From Impatiens glandulifera (Eukaryota; Streptophyta; Magnoliopsida; Ericales; Balsaminaceae): a stretch of 64,000 nt of DNA. A program made the translations under genes and the position numbers. How positions within the stretch are numbered: position 1 is the stretch's first letter; each line of letters opens with the position of its first letter. Shown here piece after piece: positions 1 through 61,760 of the stretch. The notes under the pieces were generated by a model. That model ran no database searches. It had not been told where the DNA came from and saw only the letters and a program-made list of their open reading frames with translations. Location of the stretch: NCBI RefSeq assembly GCF_907164915.1, contig NC_061863.1, positions 64,890,864-64,954,863 of the forward strand, written 5' to 3'.

Positions 1-3000
1 GCTGCATGTGGAGTCTATTCAATCCCAGAAGGAGGAGCATCGTCCTACACAGTGGAGAGGAGATTTGCAGATTGATGAAGAGGATGTTCAATGTGTATTG
101 AACATACCCAGAGGTGAATTAGTTGTGGCAGAGTGTTTAGGAAATCACACGGACGACAAGGTGTACAAGGAACATCTCACGGCGTGGAGAAGGAGATGGG
201 GATTCGAGAACAGTGGAGGTCCTTCAACCTACCAAATGCCGGACAAAATTCTACAAAACACAGAAGGAGACAGTAACTTCAAGATGGACTTCGTGGTGTT
301 TGTTGTATCCAGTTTTTTGTGGACATCCCAAAATCCACAGTGCAGGTAAACCCAAAGAACCTAGCATTAATTCTGTGATCTCATTTAGAACTTCTATATC
401 ATTTTACATGGCTTGAGTCACTACTTTTTTATTTTCAGATTCAAAGTACTGAAATCCCTCCAGGATGTATCTAAAATCAAAGACTACAACTGGTGCAAGT
501 TCACGTTAGACGGGCTAGTCGACAGTGTTTATAAGTGGAAAGCAAAGAAGACATCCTATTTCCATGGACCATTAACCTTTCTTTTGGTGAGTGTAGAAAT
601 CTATTTGCTGGAGGTTGTCCATTCATAATTTTTTGATGACTTTGAACGTAACATATATTTGTTCATGCTAATGTATCAGTTGTGCTACTTGGACCGTGTG
701 GTTGAGTCAAGGTAAACAGTAAGATCTCAAGGAGTTTTCCTATTCTAGGATGCTGGGACGAGAAGAAGATGTACGAAAAGGGTTGATTATGAGGCTGCAC
801 AGGGGGGGTTTGGGACATGGTAGGGTGGTTGCTCGCATAGCCATGCCGAATGAGCAACCACCGATGCAACAAAATGTGCAGCCAACACCACCACAAACTG
901 GAGATGACCATCCAACTGAGCATGCTCCAATTACACAAAACCTGGCGTCATGTTTGAGGAAGGTCGCTGCCGCTGCCGAAGAATTGGCACAAGGGGCTAA
1001 ATATCTGAATGAGATGCACCAGATAAACGCCATGGAACTTGTACAGTCTGCGTTTGAGCCCTTGGCCACGGTGCTAAACTCCAATGCAATCCTGAGGGAA
1101 GGCTTACAGCGGAGTCTGGACCAAAACAAAAAGCAAGCAGCCCAGAGGAAGTGGCATTACCCCCACACGGAAGCCACCACCCAAGCGAAAGGCAACACCC
1201 TTCCTACCAACAACCATGCCACACCAATCCAACGGCCCCATCGAACAAGAACACATTCACCCCCCTCCACCGAAACGAAGACAAAAGCCAACCACCCACC
1301 AACGGCCCCATCCAACAAGAGCACACTTTCTCCCAACATCCAAAAAAAATATCAACGCAGACAACCAAGCCAAATCCAACACCCATCCTCTAAACACCCT
1401 AGACCACACACAACCCACCCTCACACCAACACCCCAATCCCACAAGAACCCCCTTCCACTCAAAACAGTTACCCAAACCCCAGCCCCACCCCCTCCAATG
1501 GCACAAGCCAACGCCAACCCCCTTCCTCCAATCATAACCACACCCACTCCAGTGGCACAAGCCAAAGCCAACCCCATTCATCCACTCAAAACCACACCCC
1601 CTCCATTGGCACAAGCCAAGCCCAAAACAAACCCCATTCCTCCACTCAAAACCACACCCCCTCCAATGGCACAAGCCAAGGCCAACCCCATTCCTCCAAT
1701 CATAACCACACCCCCTCCAATGGCACAAGCCAACCCCAAAACCAACCCCATTCCTCCACTCAAAACCACACCCCCTCCAATGGCACAAGACAAGCCCAAA
1801 ACAAACCCCATTCCTCCACTCAAAACCACACCCCCTCCAATGGCACAAGCCAAGGCCAACCCCATTCCTCCAATCATAACCACACCCCCTCCAATGGCAC
1901 AAGCCAACCCCAAAACCAACCCCATTCCTCCACTCAAAACCACACCCCCTCCAATGGCACAAGACAAGCCCAAAGCAAACCCCATTCCTCCACTCAAAAC
2001 CACAACCCCTCCAATGGCACAAGCCAAAACCAAAGCCAACCCAATTACTCCCAAAACAGAAACCAACACGAACCCCAGCACTACAACCACCCCAGCCTTG
2101 CCTCCTACCCTAATTATCCAAAAAAATGAGGAAGCAGGACCTTCAAAGGCCTTAAATGTCCAAAGAAAAGCCCCACGAAATTTGAAAACTGATTGGTTAA
2201 CCGATGTCATCAAAACCGAAACCAACAAAAACTCCCCTTCTTTGGCGATAGTTAAAAAGGAACCTGAAGAATGCATCTCCCGTCTACCACATCCACTTCA
2301 AACCGCCTCGTCATTGGAGACAGTGAAGAATGAACCTGAAGAATGCATCTCCCGTCTACCACATCCACTTCAAACCGCCTATTCTTTGGAGATAGTAAAG
2401 AATGAACCGGAAGAAGGCATCTCCAGTGTACTACCGCCACTTCAAACTGGCTCTTCTCGTCCAAACATGCGAACGACAGAATGGGTTAAAGCATTGGAAT
2501 TGCCTACAGCTTTGAAAACACCTCAATTCAATAAAATGTTTAGGGATGACAAGAAACTAACAAACTTTCAGAAGATTTTTGTGGGTTTCGTATTTGCTGG
2601 AGGACTTGAGCCAAGGTAATGTTTGCTGCAAATGCTTAATTATTCATAAAAAATAGGAATTGCACACCATCTTGAAAAATGTTTTGCTGTTTCCATGCAG
2701 TGAAATGTTATTTATTGCGGAACACCTATGTCTACACTTGACGCGCGGGGACATGCTCACAATGGCTAATGAAACCTGGGTAGACAGTATGATTATTGAT
2801 GTTTGGTCATACATTTTGCACAACCTTTGTAGGAAAAATGTCAAATCTCGTTACAAGAAGATTTTCTACACAACCGTGCTCACCGTAAGTTGTACTAGCA
2901 CTGTTATTTATCAATTATGTTATTCTTGTGAGACTAAAGACTGCTGTAAACAGATTTTTCGTGAAGGTGGGATAACTACGCGAGAAAAATTCAATGACAG

Positions 3001-3697
3001 GTTCTGTCTAGAAGGTCGTGCTTTCCAAATTTCCAAAATGGACCTCTGGGAAGTGGACCTCGTAAGTACATCTTTGGCTGTCATACCTTATAATATCATT
3101 TACCACTCAGTTCAAATCTAATCTTTTCTAATTCTATCCACAGTTGTTTTTCCCAATCATTGATGACAGACATTTCTACCTTGTTTGCTATAACTTCATA
3201 CAAAGGCAATTTCAAGTAATTGATAACCGCGAGTCACCTATGCAATCGCCCTTTGAAACAAGATATAAGAATGCACAAATCTTGGTATGACACTACAATT
3301 AAAATTTAAAACAGTTCAATTTTGGAATTCTAGTAGCACTAAAATACATTACATAATGTTGTTTGTAATGATGTATCAGGATGACTACATTCAACAATAT
3401 ATGAACGACGTAGACCCCGTTCTTGCTAAAAAGTATGGCGGTTTGGAAAAGACATGTCTGAAATTGCCATGGCAGGATTCAAAGAATTACACTGACTGCG
3501 GCATTTATTGCATGAGACACATGGAGACGTATGAAGGTGAGGTGAAGGGGTGGAAAACTGGCTTTGGAGTTAAAAGAAATGTAAGGAACCAAATAAGGAC
3601 ATTGAGGATGGAATACTGTTGGCGTGTCATTGGCTCGGAGCTCAACAAGGCCAGGAGCGAGGTCTACAATTCCTGCCGTAAATGGATAAGTCAATGA
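1..3697 (+). CDS. Transposon-borne Ulp1-type cysteine protease (C48 family), partial at 5' end, probable frameshift
   Basis: Spliced gene running in from the left edge. Exons placed by splice sites and phase are <1-345, 439-586, 680-711, 749-2615, 2701-2884, 2954-3061, 3144-3284 and 3380-3697. The N-terminal part resembles the conserved domain of plant Ulp1-MULE proteins, with LTFLL joined across an intron to LCYLDRVVESR. The middle is a long Pro/Asn/Thr-rich repeat. The C-terminal part is a Ulp1 catalytic domain with His in RHFYLVCY, Asp in QVIDN, the oxyanion Gln in LPWQD and nucleophile Cys in DCGIYC, so all catalytic residues are present. Upstream exons read in frame 0, which is open to 2129. 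The catalytic half follows frame 1, which is open from before 1216. One shift inside the big exon is therefore needed, by mutation, an unseen intron or a sequence error. Family members cleave SUMO-like conjugates; the role in the transposon is unknown. Confidence 0.78.
1490..2050 (+). repeat. Coding minisatellite in the Ulp1-like gene, about ten units of 54-60 bp
   Basis: The motif ctccaatggcacaagcc recurs at intervals of 54, 57 or 60 bases from about 1493 to 2030. Every unit length is a multiple of three, so two forward frames stay open through the whole array. One frame reads repeats such as MAQAKANPIPPIITTPPP, the other repeats such as NGTSQGQPHSSNHNHTPS. Two reverse frames are also open, which is why long spurious reverse ORFs appear here. 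Units of two kinds alternate (PLKTT and PIITT versions), which suggests duplication of larger blocks. Confidence 0.85.
2245..2445 (+). repeat. Three tandem units of about 70 bp, each encoding a VK(K/N)EPEE motif
   Basis: Within the large exon of the Ulp1-like gene three near-identical units follow each other. Each encodes VKKEPEE or VKNEPEE followed by ISRLPHPLQT or a close variant. The Lys codons lie within 2250-2261, 2323-2334 and 2395-2406. VKxE fits the SUMO-attachment consensus (hydrophobic-K-x-E), with acidic residues after it. Confidence 0.8.
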
Positions 3698-4727
3698 TTT
3701 AGGAACTGTATACATATTGTGTAATTAAATTTTACAAATAATTTTAGTTCACATGAGTACAATAATGTACTCATAGACAGATGGGGTAATTAAACTATTC
3801 CTATAATTGTAATGATTTATTGTTACAATAAAGAATATGTTGGGTAATTTCAATTCTAAAAAATTGTTACTTCACATCCTCACACTTAGGAACGTGTTTA
3901 CATGAAGTGTTTTTTTTATGAAATTTGATTTTCAAATACTTGTTCAATTATGTGTTAAATGAATAAATTAAGTGAAATAAACATGAGCCGCATAAATATT
4001 CGCTTCAAACACCTTCTCTTCATAAAATATGTATGTGAAGCCTCTAATTTCATGAAAGAAATATGAAGAGAATAAATATTCGCCTCTAATACATATTTTC
4101 GATGAAGCGAATACATATTCGCCTCACGTTACTGATAATGTAAAGCCACCATCTCATCCATGAGAAGCGGGATGACTTGTCATGTCACTGCACTTACCAC
4201 GACATGTAAATACCAGTTTCAACATAAAGATCAATTTCATCAGACAAAGATGGTTAGGTTCAAGCGAAAACATCTTCGCCGCAGTATTATGTTTCAATTT
4301 CTCAATTTGCAACTAAAAGGATACTTAATATTAGTTGACTTGGGGCGAATAAATATTCGATTCATATAGGTGTTTGTAATTTTTTAGAAATTAATTAGTG
4401 TGGTCATTCATTTGGTATTTCATAAAACTTCGCATGCATACATTCGACCTTATTCTTTGTTTCAAATCCAACGTACATACAATACTATATACATATCAGA
4501 TTTCACATGAAACTGGAATTCGATAGTTGAGATGACAAAAGAACAGTGAACGGAGTATTGGCGTCCATGCTGAAACTTTCGTCCCATTGTTGAGGAGTTG
4601 AGAACTGAGGAGTTGTCGTTGGCATTGCACTTGATGGCTGGAAAGGAAGATCAAATTTATTTAAAAGTATGTTATTATATGAATATTAATAACACAATTA
4701 TTAGTAAAGAAGGGTAAGTCAGCAATT
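3698..4727. other. Spacer between convergent Ulp1 and transposase genes with palindromic GCGAA/TTCGC motifs
   Basis: This is the 3' flank of both genes. I see no coding sequence. Four or five copies of the element's palindrome are present: near 3990-4006, 4069-4086, 4104-4124 (gaagcgaatacatattcgcc, almost perfect), 4262-4280 and 4342-4363. Another part is ordinary AT-rich DNA with likely polyadenylation regions for both genes. Confidence 0.6.
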
Positions 4728-7108
4728 TCATACCGGAATATGTGATTCACTAGTTATTCTTGTTGATTTTCGTTTTCTTGAGTTCTTCTCCAGTCCACCT
4801 TTCCTTCTCTTACCCGACTTTGTTGGCTTCTTAGTTTTCATTCCTTTTGCTTGCACAGGGGCACCCTCGGCCGAACGTGATAAACCGGTTGGTGGAGTTT
4901 GCATATTTAAACTCTCCTGCAATTTTTTATCCACAAACGTGCACTGGCTCAGCATGATTTCTTTGACATGATTGTAAGTGTCATCTCTTTCGGCTGCCTT
5001 GTTAAATAAATGCATGGACAACCCACACAAATCTCTGTATCTTATGTTATGAAGCTCACTCGGATCAACATTAGTACTGTCCACGGTTGGATCAGTTCCA
5101 AATATTCCATCTTTGGCTGTTCTTGTCCACCTCTTCAATATCAACGCCGGAGGAATCTTCAACACGTCAATCGTTGTGAAAATCTTTAGGATGTGAGCAC
5201 ACAAAATCCCTCCAAATTCAAATTTACAGCAGCTACACTCGATATTCTTATCGTCATTCTTATGAACTGTAACTGTATGAGAGCATCTCCTAGTGTGGGG
5301 TGTTACCTTGTATTTTCTGTGTGTGTCAACATCCTCTAACATTTCAACACCACAATCATGCGACATAAACCATTGTTGTTCAAAGCACTTAAAGACCTCT
5401 GGGGTGTAAACTTTGCAGGCATCCTTTAAGATCAAAACTGGATAGTTAAGACTTGGTTGGCTGGTAATTGATTTGAAATCAGCCTTCAACACATCATATC
5501 TTCTTTCATCAAGTAGTCTTTCAAAGTGTTTGAAAAATTCTAAAAACTTGTGTTTGTAGGAGCAGTACCTTTTCAACATACTGTTCATACTCTCACTTCT
5601 CTGTGTTGTCGTCATATCAGCACAAAACATTTGTCGTCCATACACTAATGCCCACTTTCGCCTGATGCTAAACATGCGTTTCAACCAATCGTTGTTTTCA
5701 AGCCCGTAGTTTGTCAACATTTGATTCCAAGCTTCAACAAACTCTATCTCTTCTTCAAAATCATATATACACGAAGAAAAATCCTTAGAAAAATCTCTGA
5801 AATTATGGAACACCGAGCTAAGATGTATGGCTGCATTTTGAAATATGTGCCAAATACAGAGACGATGATTTGTTTCGGGCCATTGAGACGCCAAGGCCTT
5901 AGCCATGGCCGCGTCTTGATCTGTAAGAATGGTTTTTGGTTTTTTCCCATGCATAGCTTTGGTGAAAGTCTCAAACAACCAATCAAAAGTCATCGCAGTT
6001 TCATCGTATAATAGAGCTGCTCCAAAAAGAATTGATTGTTTGTGATGATTGACACCTACAAAAAGCGCAACTGGACGACCTTCATTATTCTTCTTGTATG
6101 TGGTGTCAAAACTGACCACGTCTCCGAAGTATGAATAATCGGACCGCATGTTGGAATCACACCAAAAAATATTCGTTATCAAATCGTCCGCATCAAGTTG
6201 AAAAGCATTATAAAAACCAGGATCATTGGATTGTTTGTTCTGCAAATACTCTAATACACCCCCTGTTTCCCCAAAATTACACTCTCTGGTTCTTTTCGTG
6301 CGCAGGTAATTTTTGTAATCCTCAGGAAGAAAACCTAGATTCTCCCTTCCACCGATTTGTTTAGACATTAGAGCATGTGATGACTTAGGAGGAATTCCCA
6401 CGTTAGTGGCCATCTCGATATGTAAGCCTGCAACTGCAGAAATATTCCTATGGCATCTATACAGGTGAGTTTTCTTTGGACTTGCAAGAGGATGACTATG
6501 ATCACTAATAAAATTTACCACTTGGAACTTTCCATTGTCTGCACGCTTTATCCTCAATTTCGCTTCACAACAGAACCGAGTCACAGAACGTCTACGTTTC
6601 ACATAGACATCACGTTTGTCCTTTCCCCGTTCACCCTGTGCACTACAACAAAAAACTCTATCCAGTATTTTACCCTCCTTGTCTACATGTTTTGAACTGC
6701 GCCTTATACCAAATCCTATTAGTTTAGCGTATGCTAAGTAGAATACGTAGCCTTCTTCTTCACTCTCAAATTCTCTACCTAAAAGTGGAATTAAGTTGGA
6801 TTCGATGTCCTCCAAAGGTTGGCCGTTTCCATCGAAATTCAATTGACGACGACAAGTAGCAGATTCGCTGTTCAGTTTGAACAAGTGGAAAATAAAGGTT
6901 TGTAGATTATTGGAAAATGAAAAAAATATAAGCGAAGAATGCTTCACTTCAACAGTATGAAGAATGTAATATTAGGCGAATATAGTTTCGCTTCATAAGA
7001 TATTATCTCATAATGTAGTAGTGAAGATATCTTCGCTTACATGTGCACTACAAAAATTGGAGAAGTTAAAAAATGTTACCTTAAATCAATAATATCATTC
7101 TCGTCCAT
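4728..7108 (-). CDS. FAR1/MuDR-type MULE transposase
   Basis: The main exon is 6867 down to 4728. A 29-nt first exon, 7108-7080 (MDENDIDL), joins it in phase and gives 722 residues. Reading the main exon alone from 6947 would start in intron-like sequence. Domains in order are: a FAR1-type DNA-binding region (GREFESEEEGYVFYLAYA, then FCCEAKLRIKR and SDHSHPL); an MULE transposase core with acidic residues in SFDTTYKKN, ILTDQDAAM and TQRSESMNS; and a SWIM zinc finger CSC-x-CAH. A basic, nuclear-localisation-like C-terminus (KKPTKSGKRRKGG) ends the protein. No internal stop or frameshift is seen, so the gene may be functional. It converges on the Ulp1 gene and is followed upstream by the BRCT gene on the same strand. 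An additional 5' exon is possible, because an acceptor-like site lies near 7142. A domesticated FAR1-related host gene is less likely given the repeat context. Confidence 0.88.
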
Positions 7109-7820
7109 ATCATTCTCGCTGATACGTATTCCTTCCTGATAATCAAAAAGAACATGACCTTTTCATGTCGATGATTCAAAAAACATAGAAAAGGTTGGGA
7201 AGAAAAGTAAAGGAGGTATAGATGACATTCAAAAACAAACCATTTTATAATTTAGGAAGACGGATTGATATTATAATGAAGTCTCCGGCGAAGGAGAGGT
7301 CGATGGTAGACAATGTAGTATAACTCCGGCGAAGAAATGGTCGTACAGTAGAGAGAGAGAAGAGTACAAAGTTGTCTAGCTTAGCAGCATGGCTTGCTGC
7401 ATGCAGCATTTAATGAAAAGGTGGCAGGTGTTAGGTGGCGGTGAGGTGACTTGTTAAAAAAATTATTTCATTTTAATAATTAAATGACAAAAATTATTAT
7501 GAAATTAAATTAATAAATCAATCAATCAATCAGTAAGCAATCAGTAAGCGAAGATTTCTTCACATTATTGTTTTGACAATTGTTTCACAAATATTATTTT
7601 GACAGTAGTTTTAAAAAATATTAATTATTTATCAAATTTATACTTCAATTTATACACTATTTGTTAATGTTTCAAGATTTAGTTAAATATAAGGCTGATG
7701 TTTAAAAAAAAAACAATTCGAAGAACAAAAAACATAATTCTGAAATCAAATATGACATTGAATTTTCAAGAATGCAAAATATTCAAATATTAAGTAAAAA
7801 ATTAAACCAACACATGTCTA
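7109..7820. other. Spacer upstream of the transposase gene
   Basis: No coding sequence is seen apart from a possible extra 5' exon of the transposase near 7109-7142. The region 7240-7440 is less AT-rich and contains ctccggcgaag twice (about 7281 and 7325) and a run of gagaga, which fits a promoter or 5' leader read leftward. One degenerate palindrome lies at 7547-7565. The rest is AT-rich. Confidence 0.4.
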
Positions 7821-8908
7821 TTACAAAAACAAAGGCTGCAAATCACAAGCAGCAATGGATTCTAGCAAGCTTGTGTGAGGAACACCAAACACATCCAAAT
7901 ATGTCTTCAGAGGATTCTCTGCCTCAAATACCCAAACAAGTTCATTAACATCGTGCCTAGACTTGTCGTATACAACTATAGTTTTGTCGTCCTCGGGCTC
8001 GACAAATGGATTCTCCATTTCTTTAGTTGTACCTCCTCCAGCAATTACAAACCCCATAAGATCAAGTTTGTAAGCCGGGATGAATTCCCCTGCAAATATG
8101 AAGGTGTAACTGTCGAAGAGTTTGGGCAGCTGAAAGAAAATACAATACATTATTAGTAATGATGGACAATTGAATATCATATGGAGGAGGGAATAAGACA
8201 AAACTTACATTGTTCAAATAACGCATTCTGCCAGCTCTTGGACCGCCCACAGTCCCATGATTATCTCGCTGGACCTCGTATGGTTCCTCGTCCACGTAAC
8301 AGTTAAATCTGATTGATGATTTTATCCCTGTATAAAAGCAATAGGTGTTTTTAGTTTCATATATGTGAAAATGAATATTGAGTTAACAGTAAAGGGTTAA
8401 GAATAACAGAGTCTCACAATCAATGGTAAGGACCCAACTCCCGTTCAATATGCCCTTCAATACTTTGATAGTGCGACCGCATCCACCATTAGAATCGGTG
8501 GATGCTATGACGTGGGTAACATCGTCTCGCCACCTCATTGACACCGTGGCACCACATGTGTTAGCATATTGTTGCATCAAGTGCTGTTTAAGAACAATCA
8601 TAAATATTTCAGTTAAACAGGATGAAAACTTAAACAATATGGAAAAAAAAGGGAGAAATGTAACGAAGAGTACTATCTCTTCACTTGTTAATTGATTTGG
8701 GCATAAAATCCAATCTTTGCCAAAGTTTTGGACGGATGCTGAGGCAGCCTGCACGTGCATGAAAAAAACATTGATTTACAGTCAAGGTAACATTTTGAGA
8801 GTAGGGTTTCCAAAAGATTAAAGAGACAACAACATCACATAACAGAATCTAGTGTAGTAGTTCCATAATCCTAAATATTAAAAGCTACTAGTCAGGAATA
8901 CGTACCAT
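7821..8908 (-). CDS. Tandem BRCT-domain mini-protein, BRCA1/BARD1 C-terminus-like, inside the MULE
   Basis: Five exons on the reverse strand join without a break: 8908-8906 (ATG only), 8748-8674, 8583-8418, 8327-8209 and 8129-7821. All introns are GT-AG and the phases agree, giving 223 residues. BRCT 1 (about residues 14-85) shows GATVS, VTHVIAST, GRTIKVLKGIL and WVLTIDW. The linker has VDEEPYEV and DNHG, a signature I know from plant BRCA1/BARD1. BRCT 2 (about 121-223) shows LPKLFDSYTFIFAGEF, VIAGGG and ends with LLESIAACDLQPL. No RING, PHD or ankyrin part is present. Host BRCA1/BARD1 are nuclear DNA-repair ubiquitin ligases whose BRCT pair binds phosphopeptides. Here it is flanked on both sides by the element's palindromes and lies behind the transposase. 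I infer capture of a host gene fragment that kept its introns. Function is unknown. Confidence 0.85.
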
Positions 8909-9035
8909 TGAGGAGTCGTGAAGATGTGGATTCAGGTTCGGTCGACGGGGAGCCGGTTACGAATCGCCGTGAAAAGGAGGCAGGAAGAGAGAGAGATGAA
9001 TCGGGCGGAAATGATAATAAAATAATCATATTAGG

Positions 9036-9050
9036 GGGTATATATATTCA
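9036..9050 (-). promoter_or_regulatory. TATA box candidate for the BRCT gene
   Basis: A tatatata core at 9040-9047, in a less AT-rich setting, lies about 130 bases upstream of the BRCT start codon read on the reverse strand. The stretch between is pyrimidine-rich on that strand (tctctctctcttcctgcc), typical of a plant 5' leader. It is placed by pattern only. Confidence 0.45.
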
Positions 9051-9057
9051 TGTAACC

Positions 9058-9215
9058 GGGGCGAACATGTCTTCTTTCGAAAAGCGACTTTTCATTCCAT
9101 GTAACATGACACAGGGACCAGGGGCGAATAAGTGTTCTCTCGAGAAGCGACTATTCAATCCATTTTACATCGAACATGGTCTAGGCGAAGAAATGTTCTT
9201 TTCCAGCGCAAAAAT
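9058..9215. repeat. Short tandem repeat of about 62 bp with GGCGAA and GCGAC motifs
   Basis: Three degenerate units begin at about 9058, 9121 and 9182, each opening with ggcgaa followed by a t-rich stretch and a gcga half-site. The first two are clearly related (ggggcgaa, then ctttcgaaaagcgac or ctctcgagaagcgac, then ttcca or ttccatt-like tails). The array carries the same half-sites as the palindromes elsewhere in the MULE. Confidence 0.6.
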
Positions 9216-9240
9216 TGAAATAAAGAAAAAAAAGTAATGA

Positions 9241-10345
9241 ATTAATTGAAGCAAATATATCTTCGCTCCAGAGAGTCTCGAGGCAAAAAAAATGAAATAA
9301 AAAAAAAATACGAAAAAAAAAATAGCCGGTAATTGAGGCGAAGATTTGTTCGGTTGCTGCATGTCATCTTCAATTAATTGTATTTATATTTAATAAACGG
9401 AAATATCAAATCCATGTAATTTTGGTCTTCACATAAACGGGTAAGTGTCTTTACATGGTATTCAAGCGGTCTTTACATGTGTGGGTAGGGTGGATTTACA
9501 TGGGGTTTTTGTTAAAATTAATTGAAGCAAAGACATCTTCGCTCCAGAGAGTCTCGAGGCAAAAAAAATGAAATAAAAGAAAAACAGGAAAAAAAAAATA
9601 GCCGGTAATTGAGGCGAAGATTTGTTCGGTTGCTGCATGTCATCTTCAATTAATTGTATTTACATTTAATAAACGGAAATATAAAATCCATGTAATTTTC
9701 GTCTTCACATAAACGGGTAAGTGTCTTTACATGGTATTCAAGCGGTCTTCACATGTGTGGGTAGGGGGGATTTACATGGGGTTTTTATTAAAATTAATGG
9801 AAGCAAATATATCTTCGCTCCAGAGAGTCTCGAGGCAAAAAAAATGAAATAAAAAAAAAATGGGAAAAGAAAACAAGCCGGTAATTGAGGCGAAGATTTG
9901 TTCGGTCGCTGGATGTCATCTTCAATTAATTGAATTAATATTTAATAAACGGAAATATAGAATCCATGTCATTTTGGTCTTCACATAAACGGGTAAATGT
10001 CTTTACATGGTAGTCAAGCGGTCTTCACATGTGTGGGTAGGGGGGTTTTACATGAGATTTTTATTAGAATGAATTGAGGCAAATATATCTTCGCTCCAGA
10101 GAGTCTCGTGGCAAAAAAAATTAAATAAAAAAAGTAAATAAAAATTCCTAGAAAATAAAAGATTGAATTACTTGAAGCGAATATTATATCGCTGCCTGTG
10201 TTATTTAATAAATTAAATTAATATTTAATAAACGTAAATATAATATGACTGTCAATTCGGTCTTTACATGGACGTGTAAGTGTATTTTCATGAACGGCAG
10301 ACGGTCTTCTCATGGGTGGGTATGCGGGGTTTACATGAGGGTCAT
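9241..10345. repeat. Four tandem repeats of 276 bp, subterminal array of the MULE
   Basis: Units start at 9241, 9517, 9793 and 10069, an exact 276-bp period. Each opens with a gaagcaaatatatcttcgct-type site and ctccagagagtctcg, then an A-rich run. The first three continue with gccggtaattgaggcgaag and then segments with cataaacgggtaa, tttacatgg and catgtgtggg. The first three units are very similar; the fourth is diverged after about 10130 but keeps the order of the motifs. There is no coding potential. Clustered subterminal repeats with half-sites are common transposase-binding platforms in other elements, so I infer that role. Confidence 0.85.
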
Positions 10346-10410
10346 GGCAACGGGCGTGTAGATCAGAGCGAAGATATCTTATCTGGGTATTATCTGAATA
10401 TTATATTATT

Positions 10411-10570
10411 TCCGGGCGTTAACGGGCGCTTCCGTTAACGGCGTCTGGTGTGAACCCGGGCCTAAACCCGGATTCCGGATTCTCCCTCCCTCCGTCTCCT
10501 GCCCAGATTGATTTATTATTAAATTAATAATGCTGCAATCTGATTGGTGCGCCACAGGGGAACACGGCAA
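10411..10570. other. GC-rich block at the presumed right end of the MULE
   Basis: The block stands out from AT-rich surroundings. It contains two copies of a cgttaacgg palindrome (10416-10424 and 10433-10441), then aacccgggcctaaacccgg. The element's last palindromic site lies just before it at about 10365. It may be the terminal inverted repeat, but the opposite end is not in the window, so this is unproven. Confidence 0.35.
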
Positions 10571-58117: not shown

Positions 58118-58553
58118 TGTTACGAGAGGATTTTAGGGTTAGGTTTTCTAACCCTTAATAAGTCGACGGATTGTTAACGAAGTCGGCAGGTTCGGTAATT
58201 TCGGTAATTTCGTTGTTAATAAGCTGTATTCACACAGCAGGTTTTAGTTTGGAATAAGCTGTTACACAGTATATGAAAGGTCTTGTAGCAGTTGAGTAAC
58301 TGCATTAGTTATAACAAAAGGGTAGTAACAGCTGGCCTTGCCAGCTGACAAAGGCAGTTAGAGAGTCTTCTAATCTCTTCTTCTAATATCTCTTCTTCTA
58401 ATTCAATCTCTTCTTCTTATCAATTGCAGATCTGCAATTATTCTCATTCTCTACTCCTCTAATCTCTCACTCTAATCTCTCATCTTATCGGCAGTTACTA
58501 AGGTACTGTCAAACCTAGATTCATATTGTATACGTATAGTTTTCATAATATCA
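58118..58553 (+). repeat. 5' LTR, 436 bp
   Basis: It starts tgttacgagagg and ends cataatatca, giving the canonical TG...CA ends. It differs from the 3' LTR by about six substitutions counted by eye, a one-base indel and length differences, mainly lack of a 108-bp segment present in the 3' LTR at 61991-62098. Confidence 0.95.
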
Positions 58554-58569
58554 TTGGTATCAGAGCAAC
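58554..58569 (+). other. Primer-binding site (tRNA-Met type)
   Basis: The bases directly after the 5' LTR, ttggtatcagagc, contain tggtatcagagc, complementary to the 3' end of initiator tRNA-Met, the primer used by most plant LTR elements. Confidence 0.9.
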
Positions 58570-58581
58570 TTTCTTGGCATT

Positions 58582-59883
58582 ATGGTGGAAACGCGAATGG
58601 AAGGAGAACTGAATGAGATACGTAGCCGTAGCCAGGCGCAGAAAGAACGCTTACAAGCGCAAGAAAATCGTTTCGATCGGATGGAGGCAATGATGACTTC
58701 AATGAACGATGCACTTATACAGCTAACTCCAGCATCCAGTAGGAATAATCCAGATCCGAGAGGTGAAGGTGGAGGTGAATACGGAGGTGGACGCCAACCT
58801 GATCGCAGACGTGGTGAAGAAAGAAGATATCGAGGTGAACATCCTGAAGAAAGAGAACCACGTGATTATATGTATCAACCACCGACGAGACTATCAAAAA
58901 TGGATTTCCCGAAATTTAATGGCAAGGATGTAGATGACTGGATATATGAAGTGGAAATGTTCTTTCAGGTGGATCACACATTGGAAGAATCAAAATTAGA
59001 ATATGCTTGTGCACACTTAAAAGGAAGAGCCCGATGTTGGTTTAGTTCTCATCTACAACACAGGTTACCGGGAAGAGCTATGACTTGGCAGGAGTTAAAG
59101 GCGCTCGTACTAAAAGAGTTTGGTCCGAGTGAATTTGATGATCCGTTAGACGAATGGAAAGATCTTAAACAGTCAGCTTCGGTTAAGGAATTTGGTAAGA
59201 ATTACTTGGATGTCATCTACAAGTTACCACACCTTACGAATGAGTACTCAATTAAAGGTTATTTAAACGGATTGAAAGAGGAGATTGCAAATCCAATCAG
59301 AATTCAAAAACCGGGATCATTATCGGAGACTATGGGAATGGCTAAACTGCAAGAGAGAACAAATATTAAATTGCAAGAGGCAGTGTGTGATTCATTGGTA
59401 CGCCGGGGCTATCTAGCAAATAAAGGGAGTCCTCTACTGTCCAATCCTAAGCAACCTGCATTTGGCAGCAAAAACAACTATTTGGGAGGCTATAATCGAT
59501 CAGGTTCGAGTACTTCTATTACTGCTATTAATGATGGAGCAGTGTCGAAACCAGCCGTCACTAATCAGAGTTCTCGAAGGTCTAATATCGACCAGAAAAC
59601 TTTGGATGAACGAAGAAAGAAAAATCAATGTTTCTATTGTGAAGAAAGGTGGAAATATGGGCATAGATGTAAGTCTGGGCCTGTAGTTATGAGTATTGAA
59701 GTGATGGAAGCTGAAAGTCAAGTGAATGATATTGACGGAACAGAAACAGAAGAAATAACAGTAGAGGCATTGGCAGTGAGCCTCGAAGGAGCTACCACAT
59801 TTGAGACAATGAAGATCAAAGGCAATGTGGGTAAAACACTGTATATGTGTTGGTGGATTCAGGCAGCACACATAATTTTGTGA
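58582..59883 (+). CDS. gag: Retrotransposon gag polyprotein
   Basis: 433 residues in one frame. A charged coiled N-terminus is followed by the gag domain (about 105-235: LSKMDFPKFNGKDVDDWIYE, FFQVD, YACAHLKGRARCWF, TWQELKALVLKEFGP). A zinc knuckle of the plant gypsy kind follows (CFYCEERWKYGHRC, about 348-361). The frame then runs past the start of the protease and ends at 59883. Gag forms the particle that holds the RNA. The protease continues in another frame, so a one-base indel near 59845 probably broke a formerly continuous gag-pol frame. Confidence 0.9.
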   Translation: MVETRMEGELNEIRSRSQAQKERLQAQENRFDRMEAMMTSMNDALIQLTPASSRNNPDPRGEGGGEYGGGRQPDRRRGEERRYRGEHPEEREPRDYMYQPPTRLSKMDFPKFNGKDVDDWIYEVEMFFQVDHTLEESKLEYACAHLKGRARCWFSSHLQHRLPGRAMTWQELKALVLKEFGPSEFDDPLDEWKDLKQSASVKEFGKNYLDVIYKLPHLTNEYSIKGYLNGLKEEIANPIRIQKPGSLSETMGMAKLQERTNIKLQEAVCDSLVRRGYLANKGSPLLSNPKQPAFGSKNNYLGGYNRSGSSTSITAINDGAVSKPAVTNQSSRRSNIDQKTLDERRKKNQCFYCEERWKYGHRCKSGPVVMSIEVMEAESQVNDIDGTETEEITVEALAVSLEGATTFETMKIKGNVGKTLYMCWWIQAAHIIL

Positions 59884-60140
59884 ATCCCAGGGCAATTCGA
59901 GGTACTGAGTTTGTCACATCTCTTACAAGACCGTTAACTGTAACAGTGGCGAACGGGCATCAGTTAATAACCAACAGTGAATGCAGGGGTCTGAAATTGT
60001 CTTCCCAGGGTGAGGATTTTGTTGTTAATGCAAGACTGATGTCCATACCAAAATATGATATCATTTTGGGGATCGAATGGTTGTCAACCTTGGGTAATCT
60101 AAACTGGGATTTTAATGTATTGGTAATGTCCTTTCAATAA
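59847..60140 (+). pseudogene. Retrotransposon aspartic protease region, cut by a stop
   Basis: 97 residues in a frame different from gag. The active-site motif is LVDSGSTHNFV with catalytic Asp, and the IIL-GIEWL region completes the fold. A TAA at 60138-60140 ends it. The same frame continues just after (60150 onward), so the stop is a point disruption within pol. Downstream, reverse transcriptase and RNase H are absent. Confidence 0.82.
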
Positions 60141-60149
60141 TCAGGAAGA

Positions 60150-61760
60150 ATGGTGAATTTACACGGTAATACTACCAAGGAAGTGAAAATGTTAGAAGGC
60201 CGAACCTTGGGAACTACAATCAGAAAGGGATTTTGCTCAGCAATATCAGAATTTTCATCAGTTTTATTGAAAAAAATTGAGAAATCGTGGAGTCAAGATT
60301 TGAACTTAAAGAAGATCATTTCAACATTAGAGACAGATCCGTCAGGGATAAAAGAGTTTTCCTTCATCAAAGGCCAGCTGCGTAAAGAAGGGCGTTTGGT
60401 GGTGGGTTGTGATAGAGATCTGAGAACTTATGTTATTTCAACAATGCATAATTCAGCAGTGGGCGGACATTCAGGAGTAATGGTCACATATCAGAAACTG
60501 CGTCAAGCGTATTTTTGGAGGGGAATGGAACGAGATGTTAGAGAATTTGTGAGAAACTGTGTTATTTGTCAGCAACAGAAATGGGAGAATCAAGGGTATA
60601 AAGGGTTGTTGCAACCTTTGGCTATTCCTACATCAATTTGGAGTGATATTTCCATGGATTTCATTGAAGGTCTGCCTAAAGTCAATGGGTATTCTGTTAT
60701 TTTTGTAGTGGTGGACAGACTCTCCAAGATGGCTCATTTTGTTAGGTTGAAACATCCATTTTCTGCTAGTGATATTGCTCAAGTGTTCATAGATAATATA
60801 TATCGATTACATGGAATGCCGCTGACCATTGTAAGTGACAGGGATAAAATCTTTGTGAGTAATTTTTGGAAGGAATTGTGTAAATTGCAAGGTATTGAGC
60901 AGGCCATGTCATCAGCATATCACCCACAAACCGATGGGCAGACGGAAGTGGTTAATCGAAGCCTGGAAACTTATTTGCGTTGTATGGCAGGTCAAAAACC
61001 TAAGTCATGGGTAAAGTGGCTTCCTTTAGCTGAATGGTGGTACAATACAAACTTTCACTCGGCAGCGTTATCGTCACCATATGAAATCGTGTATGGTCAA
61101 CCTCCACCAGTTCATCATCCATACTTAGCAGGGGACTCAAGGATTGAGGCAGTGGACCGCAGTTTGTCGGCAAGGGAAGAGACATTGAAACTTTTGAAGT
61201 TTCATCTCCAACGGGCACAACATCGGATGAAGCATCAATCAGACAAAAGAAGGGTCGACTGTGTTTACCAAGTGGGGGATTGGGTGTTTGTTAAGCTACA
61301 ACCATACAGACAATCTTCGGTGAGAGGAAAAATGCACAAACTCAGCCCTAAGTTCTATGGACCCTTTCAAATAATGGAAAGGGTGGGGAAGGTGGCTTAC
61401 AAGATTGACATTCCGTCCACAGCAAAAATGCACAATGTTATGCACATTTCTCAGCTAAAGAAAAAGGTGGGAAATGCAGTAACCAATCCTCATATTCCTA
61501 TCCTACAAGAGGACAGCCTTGTGGAACCAGTGGCAATTCTAGATGAGAGAATTGTTTGGAAGGATGGAGTCAGTACGGGACAATTCCTGATCAGGTGGTC
61601 TAACGCTTCAGATGATGATGCTAGCTGGGAGGAAGAGTCATGGTTGATGACAAAGTATCCTCAATTTGTGTTGACGGTGGGAGACACACCTTCCTTCAAT
61701 CAACTTGTTCGTGGGCGAACAAGTGTTGATGGGGAGGCTAATGTTACGAGAGGATTTTAG
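60150..61760 (+). CDS. Retrotransposon integrase with chromodomain, after an RT/RNase H deletion
   Basis: 536 residues. The first 30-40 are remnant protease/RT linker. The HHCC zinc-binding domain follows (HNSAVGGHSG, CVICQQQK). The integrase core has DISMDFIEGLP, TIVSDRDKIF and, for the Glu, the YHPQTDGQTEVVNRSLE block. A GPF-type region (HKLSPKFYGPFQI) and a chromodomain-like end (ILDERIVWKDG, FLIRWSNASDDDASWEEESWL) complete it. No YxDD or other reverse transcriptase motif occurs between 60140 and 60400. Integrase joins element DNA to the host genome; the chromodomain in this group directs insertion to marked chromatin. The reading frame is intact, and it runs into the 3' LTR. Confidence 0.9.
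   Translation: MVNLHGNTTKEVKMLEGRTLGTTIRKGFCSAISEFSSVLLKKIEKSWSQDLNLKKIISTLETDPSGIKEFSFIKGQLRKEGRLVVGCDRDLRTYVISTMHNSAVGGHSGVMVTYQKLRQAYFWRGMERDVREFVRNCVICQQQKWENQGYKGLLQPLAIPTSIWSDISMDFIEGLPKVNGYSVIFVVVDRLSKMAHFVRLKHPFSASDIAQVFIDNIYRLHGMPLTIVSDRDKIFVSNFWKELCKLQGIEQAMSSAYHPQTDGQTEVVNRSLETYLRCMAGQKPKSWVKWLPLAEWWYNTNFHSAALSSPYEIVYGQPPPVHHPYLAGDSRIEAVDRSLSAREETLKLLKFHLQRAQHRMKHQSDKRRVDCVYQVGDWVFVKLQPYRQSSVRGKMHKLSPKFYGPFQIMERVGKVAYKIDIPSTAKMHNVMHISQLKKKVGNAVTNPHIPILQEDSLVEPVAILDERIVWKDGVSTGQFLIRWSNASDDDASWEEESWLMTKYPQFVLTVGDTPSFNQLVRGRTSVDGEANVTRGF
61728..61741 (+). other. Polypurine tract
   Basis: tggggaggctaa lies directly before the 3' LTR, the usual position for plus-strand priming. It overlaps the end of the integrase frame. 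Confidence 0.75.

Follow-up and report, generated by a model that had tools for sequence, protein, structure and literature searches.

A tandem-BRCT gene lies inside an autonomous-type MULE

The window analysed here, a 64,000-nucleotide stretch of the Impatiens glandulifera genome (C2:64890864-64954863), carries on its minus strand, at positions 7821-8908, a BARD1-type tandem-BRCT gene whose five exons join across AG/GT junctions into a frame of 672 nt, encoding 223 amino acids and a stop codon. Splice reconstruction assigns the start codon alone to exon 1 (8906-8908). Exon 2 (8674-8748), which also occurs in further copies, is followed by exon 3 (8418-8583), where Pfam places the core of the first BRCT repeat (BRCT1), by exon 4 (8209-8327), both boundaries of which agree with host BARD1, and by exon 5 (7821-8129), which specifies the second repeat (BRCT2, with an AlphaFold model) and the stop codon. 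The 5' flank on the same strand (8909-9060), as read by eye, contains a TATA-like run at approximately 9040-9047 and a CT-rich leader. The original prediction made from the letters of this locus had described a gene of five exons with correct splice sites and phases, an uninterrupted 223-residue product, its own start codon and a TATA box, and the reconstructed frame bears out both the coordinates and the start codon, and a TATA-like run is seen by eye.

The product had also been described as a pair of BRCT repeats. Pfam identifies a BRCT domain at residues 19-87 (4.1e-10), and the top solved-structure match to the 223-aa protein is human BARD1 (8.2e-15), which extends over residues 15-170 and across both repeats; chance similarity was rejected. 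The second repeat alone receives no call from Pfam, and its support from AlphaFold is modest, the model of exon 5 by itself having a BRCT-like order of strand-helix-strand-strand-helix-helix at a mean pLDDT of 65.5, with a poor C-terminus. Pfam detects neither a RING nor a PHD domain in the 223-aa protein; P0008 shows both.

Only the right half of the MULE in which the gene resides falls within the window. The element spans 21,010 bp (~21.0 kb), from C2:64880447, which lies outside the window, to window position 10593, and is bounded by inverted repeats that are 97% identical over 1021 bp, the right one at 9572-10593. Ten other copies, drawn from 60 transposase copies that were scored among 3532 candidates, align with the window through the transposase and the BRCT gene and then stop at window positions 10590-10598. 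In all ten (10/10) the end falls at 10593, each time against a different flank, so we can rule out that the BRCT gene is a host gene that merely neighbours the MULE. Target-site duplications of MULEs are about 8-11 bp long; no clean repeat was found at the ends of the window copy.

Adjoining the BRCT gene on the same strand is the transposase, an ORF of 747 aa from stop to stop (4728-6971, minus strand) with FAR1, MULE and SWIM domains in Pfam (PF10551, 8.4e-30; FAR1, 3.7e-20; SWIM, 8.4e-8), and this frame is without stops in 57 of the 60 scored genome copies. The prediction that the BRCT gene sits next to the transposase of an autonomous-looking MULE was thus correct. On the plus strand, positions 1-3697 hold the 3' part of the second of two Ulp1-domain genes, which we call KIU/VANC-like; its C48 peptidase match is just over the cut-off (21.4 bits vs 20.7), with a weak hint of DUF1985 (15.9 bits, 0.013) that falls below the cut-off of 35.1. 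The first Ulp1-domain gene, read in the copy L009, scores 35.9 bits for C48 against the same cut-off of 20.7.

The non-coding DNA of the element is marked by a palindrome, GCGAA(N6)TTCGC, which we counted allowing up to two mismatches. Five matches lie between the Ulp1-like gene and the transposase (3707-4727, clustered at 3966-4370), one in the transposase interval (4728-6971), five between the transposase and the BRCT gene (6972-7820), and 12 upstream of the BRCT gene (8909-10440), with none in the BRCT gene itself (7821-8908) and none in 1-3706. The cluster between transposase and BRCT gene runs from 6926 to 7563, its first match lying at the margin of the transposase ORF, and upstream of the BRCT gene the palindromes occur with three to four copies of a 276-bp tandem repeat (9240-10340). 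The claim that the palindromes of the element lie on both sides of the BRCT gene therefore stands. Across the 21-kb element there are 43 palindromes, present in both terminal repeats and in every gap between genes; 39 are in these places and four are inside other gene spans. The remaining 53.6 kb of the window have two matches, compared with eight in shuffled sequence, although such shuffle counts are a rough guide only because the pattern was picked after the sequence had been viewed. Local alignment of the intergenic DNA against shuffles, a weak test, also returned a repeat match between 4138-4214 and 10258-10336, to which we give no weight because two of ten host controls likewise beat all of their shuffles.

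The BRCT gene is retained in every family copy examined

In 30 of 30 further copies, which amount to one recent burst and not to 30 independent tests because they were picked from transposases 99-100% like that of the window, the BRCT gene has an open frame and sits in the same slot. Ten of these copies were followed for ~10 kb on the BRCT side, covering all five exons, and 20 were inspected at the slot only, covering exons 2-5; the latter were chosen from the same 60 transposase copies and include the three whose transposase has a stop. One copy (L022) has lost a splice acceptor dinucleotide of the BRCT gene. A search for family members without the gene thus found none among these 10 + 20 copies.

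Searching the genome with the BRCT gene as DNA gave 754 first-look candidates, and the 40 that were scored are 99-100% identical over 7821-8750. For 28 of these, a transposase from the list follows 832-850 bp downstream in the same orientation; the other 12 have no transposase nearby among the 60 listed. With the Pfam BRCT profile we obtained 646 candidates and scored 150, of which 144 are stop-free stretches, mostly of a single exon, and a few are host genes. Beyond the family itself, both examined copies of a sister subfamily whose transposase ORF has 723 aa (L057 and L058; 2/2) have the BRCT gene in the slot, and a more distant MULE (P0015, 58% transposase identity) has no BRCT within the 1.4 kb of the slot examined (1/1).

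The transposon BRCT gene derives from host BARD1

The I. glandulifera genome retains a BARD1 gene (L053, C5:50.70 Mb) with PHD-like and BRCT exons. The window BRCT is 59% identical to it over 194 codons, and the two have in common the introns at TID|W and LNN|LP. In a phylogenetic tree, the transposon BRCTs, drawn from four sources, group as a single clade (100/100) that is sister to host BARD1 (99/99); the tree also holds seven other sequences, including one BRCA1, all of which fall outside the transposon-BARD1 group. When the BRCT1 exons of host BRCA1 are added, which cover only 38% of the tree columns, they join Silene BRCA1, and the transposon-BARD1 grouping is recovered at 100/99. We therefore rejected BRCA1 as the donor, and of the original description of the gene as BRCA1/BARD1-like, the BARD1 half stands and the BRCA1 half does not.

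The capture is old, as dS between the transposon BRCT (TE1) and host BARD1 is 0.94, and residues have changed in common among the transposon copies. At residues 18-20, GSA has become PNQ in the three transposon rows with coverage and is invariant in the four BARD1 hosts with data, and the Trp at residue 208 has become Ser or Lys in the three transposon rows with coverage and is invariant in seven hosts. The single clade, the common introns and these common residue changes point to one capture of genomic DNA, followed by divergence along with the transposons. Aligned with the phosphate site of human BARD1, whose residue roles are described in the available portion of PMC12805184, the transposon BRCT retains the Lys and has Asn 19 in place of the Ser; on our reading of the alignment, this Ser would correspond to human S575 and its pocket partner to K619. 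With Asn for the aligned Ser and the Lys retained, classical phosphoserine reading is probably weakened, and docking on nucleosomes or partners could persist.

A second MULE lineage carries the same BRCT gene

Among the scored Pfam BRCT matches, all seven distinct transposon loci that we examined (L003, L004, L005, L006, L007 [the same as L032], L008 [the same as L031] and L030) have a BRCT gene that is 67-69% identical in DNA to that of the window, and the second-lineage BRCT is 62% identical to the window BRCT. L030 is a short form of ~4.0 kb with inverted repeats of ~600 bp that are 95.5% identical and, judging from the printed junctions, an 8-bp target-site duplication, GGTTATTT; no match to the window transposase was found in it. 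L031 and L032 have a longer unit in common. In L032 the BRCT gene is followed by a MuDR-type transposase of 729 aa (PF10551, 5.4e-23; DBD_Tnp_Mut, 2.3e-10; SWIM, 1.1e-7) and then by a C48 gene on the opposite strand (4e-27), which is the gene order and orientation of the window element; the two transposases are of different kinds, 20% identical over 168 aa. The transposase frame of L031 is broken.

An NCBI gene model on C1 of I. glandulifera (P0007, RICESLEEPER 2-like) joins BRCT exons of the transposon clade to a hAT transposase. We did not take this as a true BRCT-hAT fusion but treated it as a chimeric gene model with its BRCT part within the transposon clade; it is probably a chimeric annotation, or else marks a third context in which the BRCT gene occurs.

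The BRCT gene has evolved under purifying selection

Comparison of the window with the two sister copies, on which the between-subfamily estimate rests, gave a dN/dS for the BRCT gene of 0.20 with L057 (12 synonymous and nine nonsynonymous changes; Fisher p 3e-4) and of 0.05 with L058 (10 and two; Fisher p 8e-6). By the same measure, the transposase has a dN/dS of 0.27 against the sister copy L060 (23 and 25; Fisher p 1e-5). Within the family, 25 full-length copies including that of the window, six BRCT copies of other length being excluded from the count, have eight synonymous and 10 nonsynonymous BRCT variants (dN/dS 0.34, p 0.024). A dN/dS among copies had been proposed as a check on the original prediction, and the values of 0.20 and 0.05 against the sisters and 0.34 within the family are not near 1. 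With the introns as the yardstick, the BRCT of L057 is constrained (p 0.010) and that of L058 is not significantly so (p 0.21), because the introns of L058 differ by only 1.2% from those of the window. Synonymous divergence between L058 and the window is 7%, higher than that of the introns, which suggests mosaic exchange between the subfamilies or constraint on the introns.

Constraint is also seen between the two BRCT families. Between the window and a second-lineage BRCT (L030), dN/dS is 0.38 (95% bootstrap 0.25-0.54), and six rows spanning the two BRCT families give 0.38-0.41. Among the second-lineage BRCTs themselves, pairwise ratios range from 0.39 to 1.22 and two of five distinct copies have a stop. 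We also scored substitution types against P0007, where 15 of 26 changes are conservative and none of 2000 neutral runs reached as high a value; dN/dS was used instead.

Possible roles of the BRCT gene in the transposon

Position inside the element, presence across copies, single origin, donor, common introns and constraint are all supported by the results above. They lead us to propose, with a probability of roughly 0.87, that the BARD1-derived BRCT serves as a selected accessory gene of the MULE. On this proposal, an autonomous-type Impatiens MULE would have taken up the 3' part of host BARD1 once, as genomic DNA with its introns; the captured piece would have become a free-standing 223-aa tandem-BRCT gene retained by selection, and the same gene would now also be found in the second MULE lineage. 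The original idea that the element has made a BRCT module part of its equipment agrees with its presence in 30/30 copies and 2/2 sisters and with dN/dS of 0.05-0.34, and since a piece of BARD1 taken long ago has been kept intact by selection, the transposon probably uses it.

As to how, we tentatively favour a model in which, at transposase-induced breaks, the BRCT pair would dock either on nucleosomes or on repair complexes of BRCA1/BARD1 and bias repair or chromatin for the benefit of the element, for example towards gap repair from a template, by which the donor copy is restored. The protein would act without the RING/ubiquitin-ligase part of BARD1, and the loss of the Ser suggests docking on chromatin or protein rather than classical phosphoserine reading. 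A broader possibility, which we hold as tentatively, is that transposase, Ulp1 protease and BRCT may be a recurrent functional set, two unrelated MULE lineages having converged on or exchanged a BARD1-derived BRCT gene ahead of the transposase; its protein might be a handle on host repair or chromatin that raises copy number, with recognition altered by replacement of the Ser and of the BRCT2 Trp.

Docking at breaks seems to us somewhat likelier than either of two other roles, both of which we consider doubtful. In the first, the BRCT gene would work not in repair but with the Ulp1/VANC-like genes, as a chromatin or anti-silencing helper that keeps the element open. In both MULE lineages the BRCT gene does occur together with C48 genes, the arrangement of palindromes and tandem repeats, mostly in non-coding DNA, is reminiscent of the VANC targets in the available text of PMC5735166, and KIU elements are described in the excerpts of PMC13317346 as hypomethylating their relatives. 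The DUF1985 match that would tie the Ulp1-like gene to such a system is nevertheless weak (0.013, below cut-off). BRCT pairs are, to our knowledge, not established as demethylation factors. In the second, a BRCT-only protein would be a decoy or dominant negative, competing with host BARD1/BRCA1 at breaks or chromatin and so lowering repair or silencing. A protein of 223 aa without the rest of BARD1, with no RING or PHD match and with the Lys but not the Ser of the human phosphate site (roles as given in the accessible part of PMC12805184) could act in this way; yet a competitor should retain the host binding surface, and residues 18-20 and 208 are altered at positions where the sampled hosts are invariant. 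That the gene is instead a functionless, Pack-MULE-style host fragment hitch-hiking on a successful element and intact only through a recent burst would fit the 99-100% likeness of the scored copies, the short BRCT-only form (L030, ~4.0 kb) and broken copies of the second lineage and the non-significant intron-based test of L058, but it is already disfavoured, and we think it very improbable, given dN/dS well below 1 both between subfamilies and from one MULE lineage to the other, a frame that is open despite an old single capture (TE1-host dS 0.94), and the same place beside the transposase in both lineages.

Relation to known transposons and to BARD1

The nearest known counterparts of the BRCT-carrying element include Ulp1-carrying MULEs, which are known in melon, rice and grapevine (PMC13317346), and the VANC anti-silencing systems (PMC13317346, PMC5735166, PMC10398659). 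The KIU/VANDAL elements of Arabidopsis, with VANA, VANB and VANC, resemble the window element in combining a MULE transposase with Ulp1-domain genes, several genes to an element (PMC5735166, PMC10398659, PMC13317346, available excerpts), and in having non-coding DNA with tandem motif repeats; the VANC protein of this group acts in sequence-specific hypomethylation. They differ in that KIU is described, in those excerpts, as non-TIR, whereas the window element has 1-kb TIRs, and in that the excerpted descriptions mention no BRCT gene; the function of VANB, the third VANDAL gene, is given as unknown in the accessible part of PMC6446971. The melon, rice and grapevine elements are likewise MULEs with a Ulp1 domain, and their descriptions, as excerpted from PMC13317346, mention no BRCT gene.

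Pack-MULEs share with the window element a captured genomic host fragment with introns, and the short L030, with no match to the window transposase, is Pack-MULE-like; however, Pack-MULEs are non-autonomous and without transposase, whereas the window element is of autonomous type and its fragment is under purifying selection. Plant BARD1 and the transposon BRCT have the same tandem-BRCT C-terminus and common intron positions, but the latter has no RING, no PHD, its own start codon, CPNQL for CGSAL and HTS for HTW. In openly licensed PMC text, no BRCT-carrying MULE was apparent from the title or start of the abstract among the matches listed, and nothing was found for Pack-MULE together with BRCT.

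Host genes captured by MULEs are usually viewed as role-less fragments, with Ulp1 as an exception whose role is still described as unknown (PMC13317346, available text). The strong sequence evidence presented here indicates that a BARD1-derived BRCT would, as a MULE accessory gene, extend the known Ulp1-MULE kind: a DNA-repair module is under purifying selection in autonomous-type MULEs, in many copies and two lineages. Because the module is retained so widely and the donor gene is still present, the question of a plant transposon steering host repair or chromatin can be put to a direct test.

Additional features of the element and the window

Several further observations concern the genes around the BRCT. 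Between the two Ulp1-domain genes, L009 has a 461-aa ORF (L009:5899-7284) with a DUF7745 match (1.8e-4) below the cut-off, a putative extra accessory gene of the MULE. At window positions 1100-1240, the second Ulp1-like gene has frame-changing indels relative to nine of nine other copies compared, and at 1394-2083 its coding part contains 54/60-bp tandem repeats with two frames open; VANC proteins are reported, in the accessible part of PMC5735166, to have repeats in their variable regions. The top-scoring annotated relatives of the transposase are from Zingiber officinale (62%), above those annotated in I. glandulifera (55-56%), which could reflect horizontal transfer or repeat masking during annotation. 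Elsewhere in the window, positions 58549-61760 carry frames of a Ty3/gypsy-type retrotransposon, with a gag-like region recognised by eye and an integrase and chromodomain.
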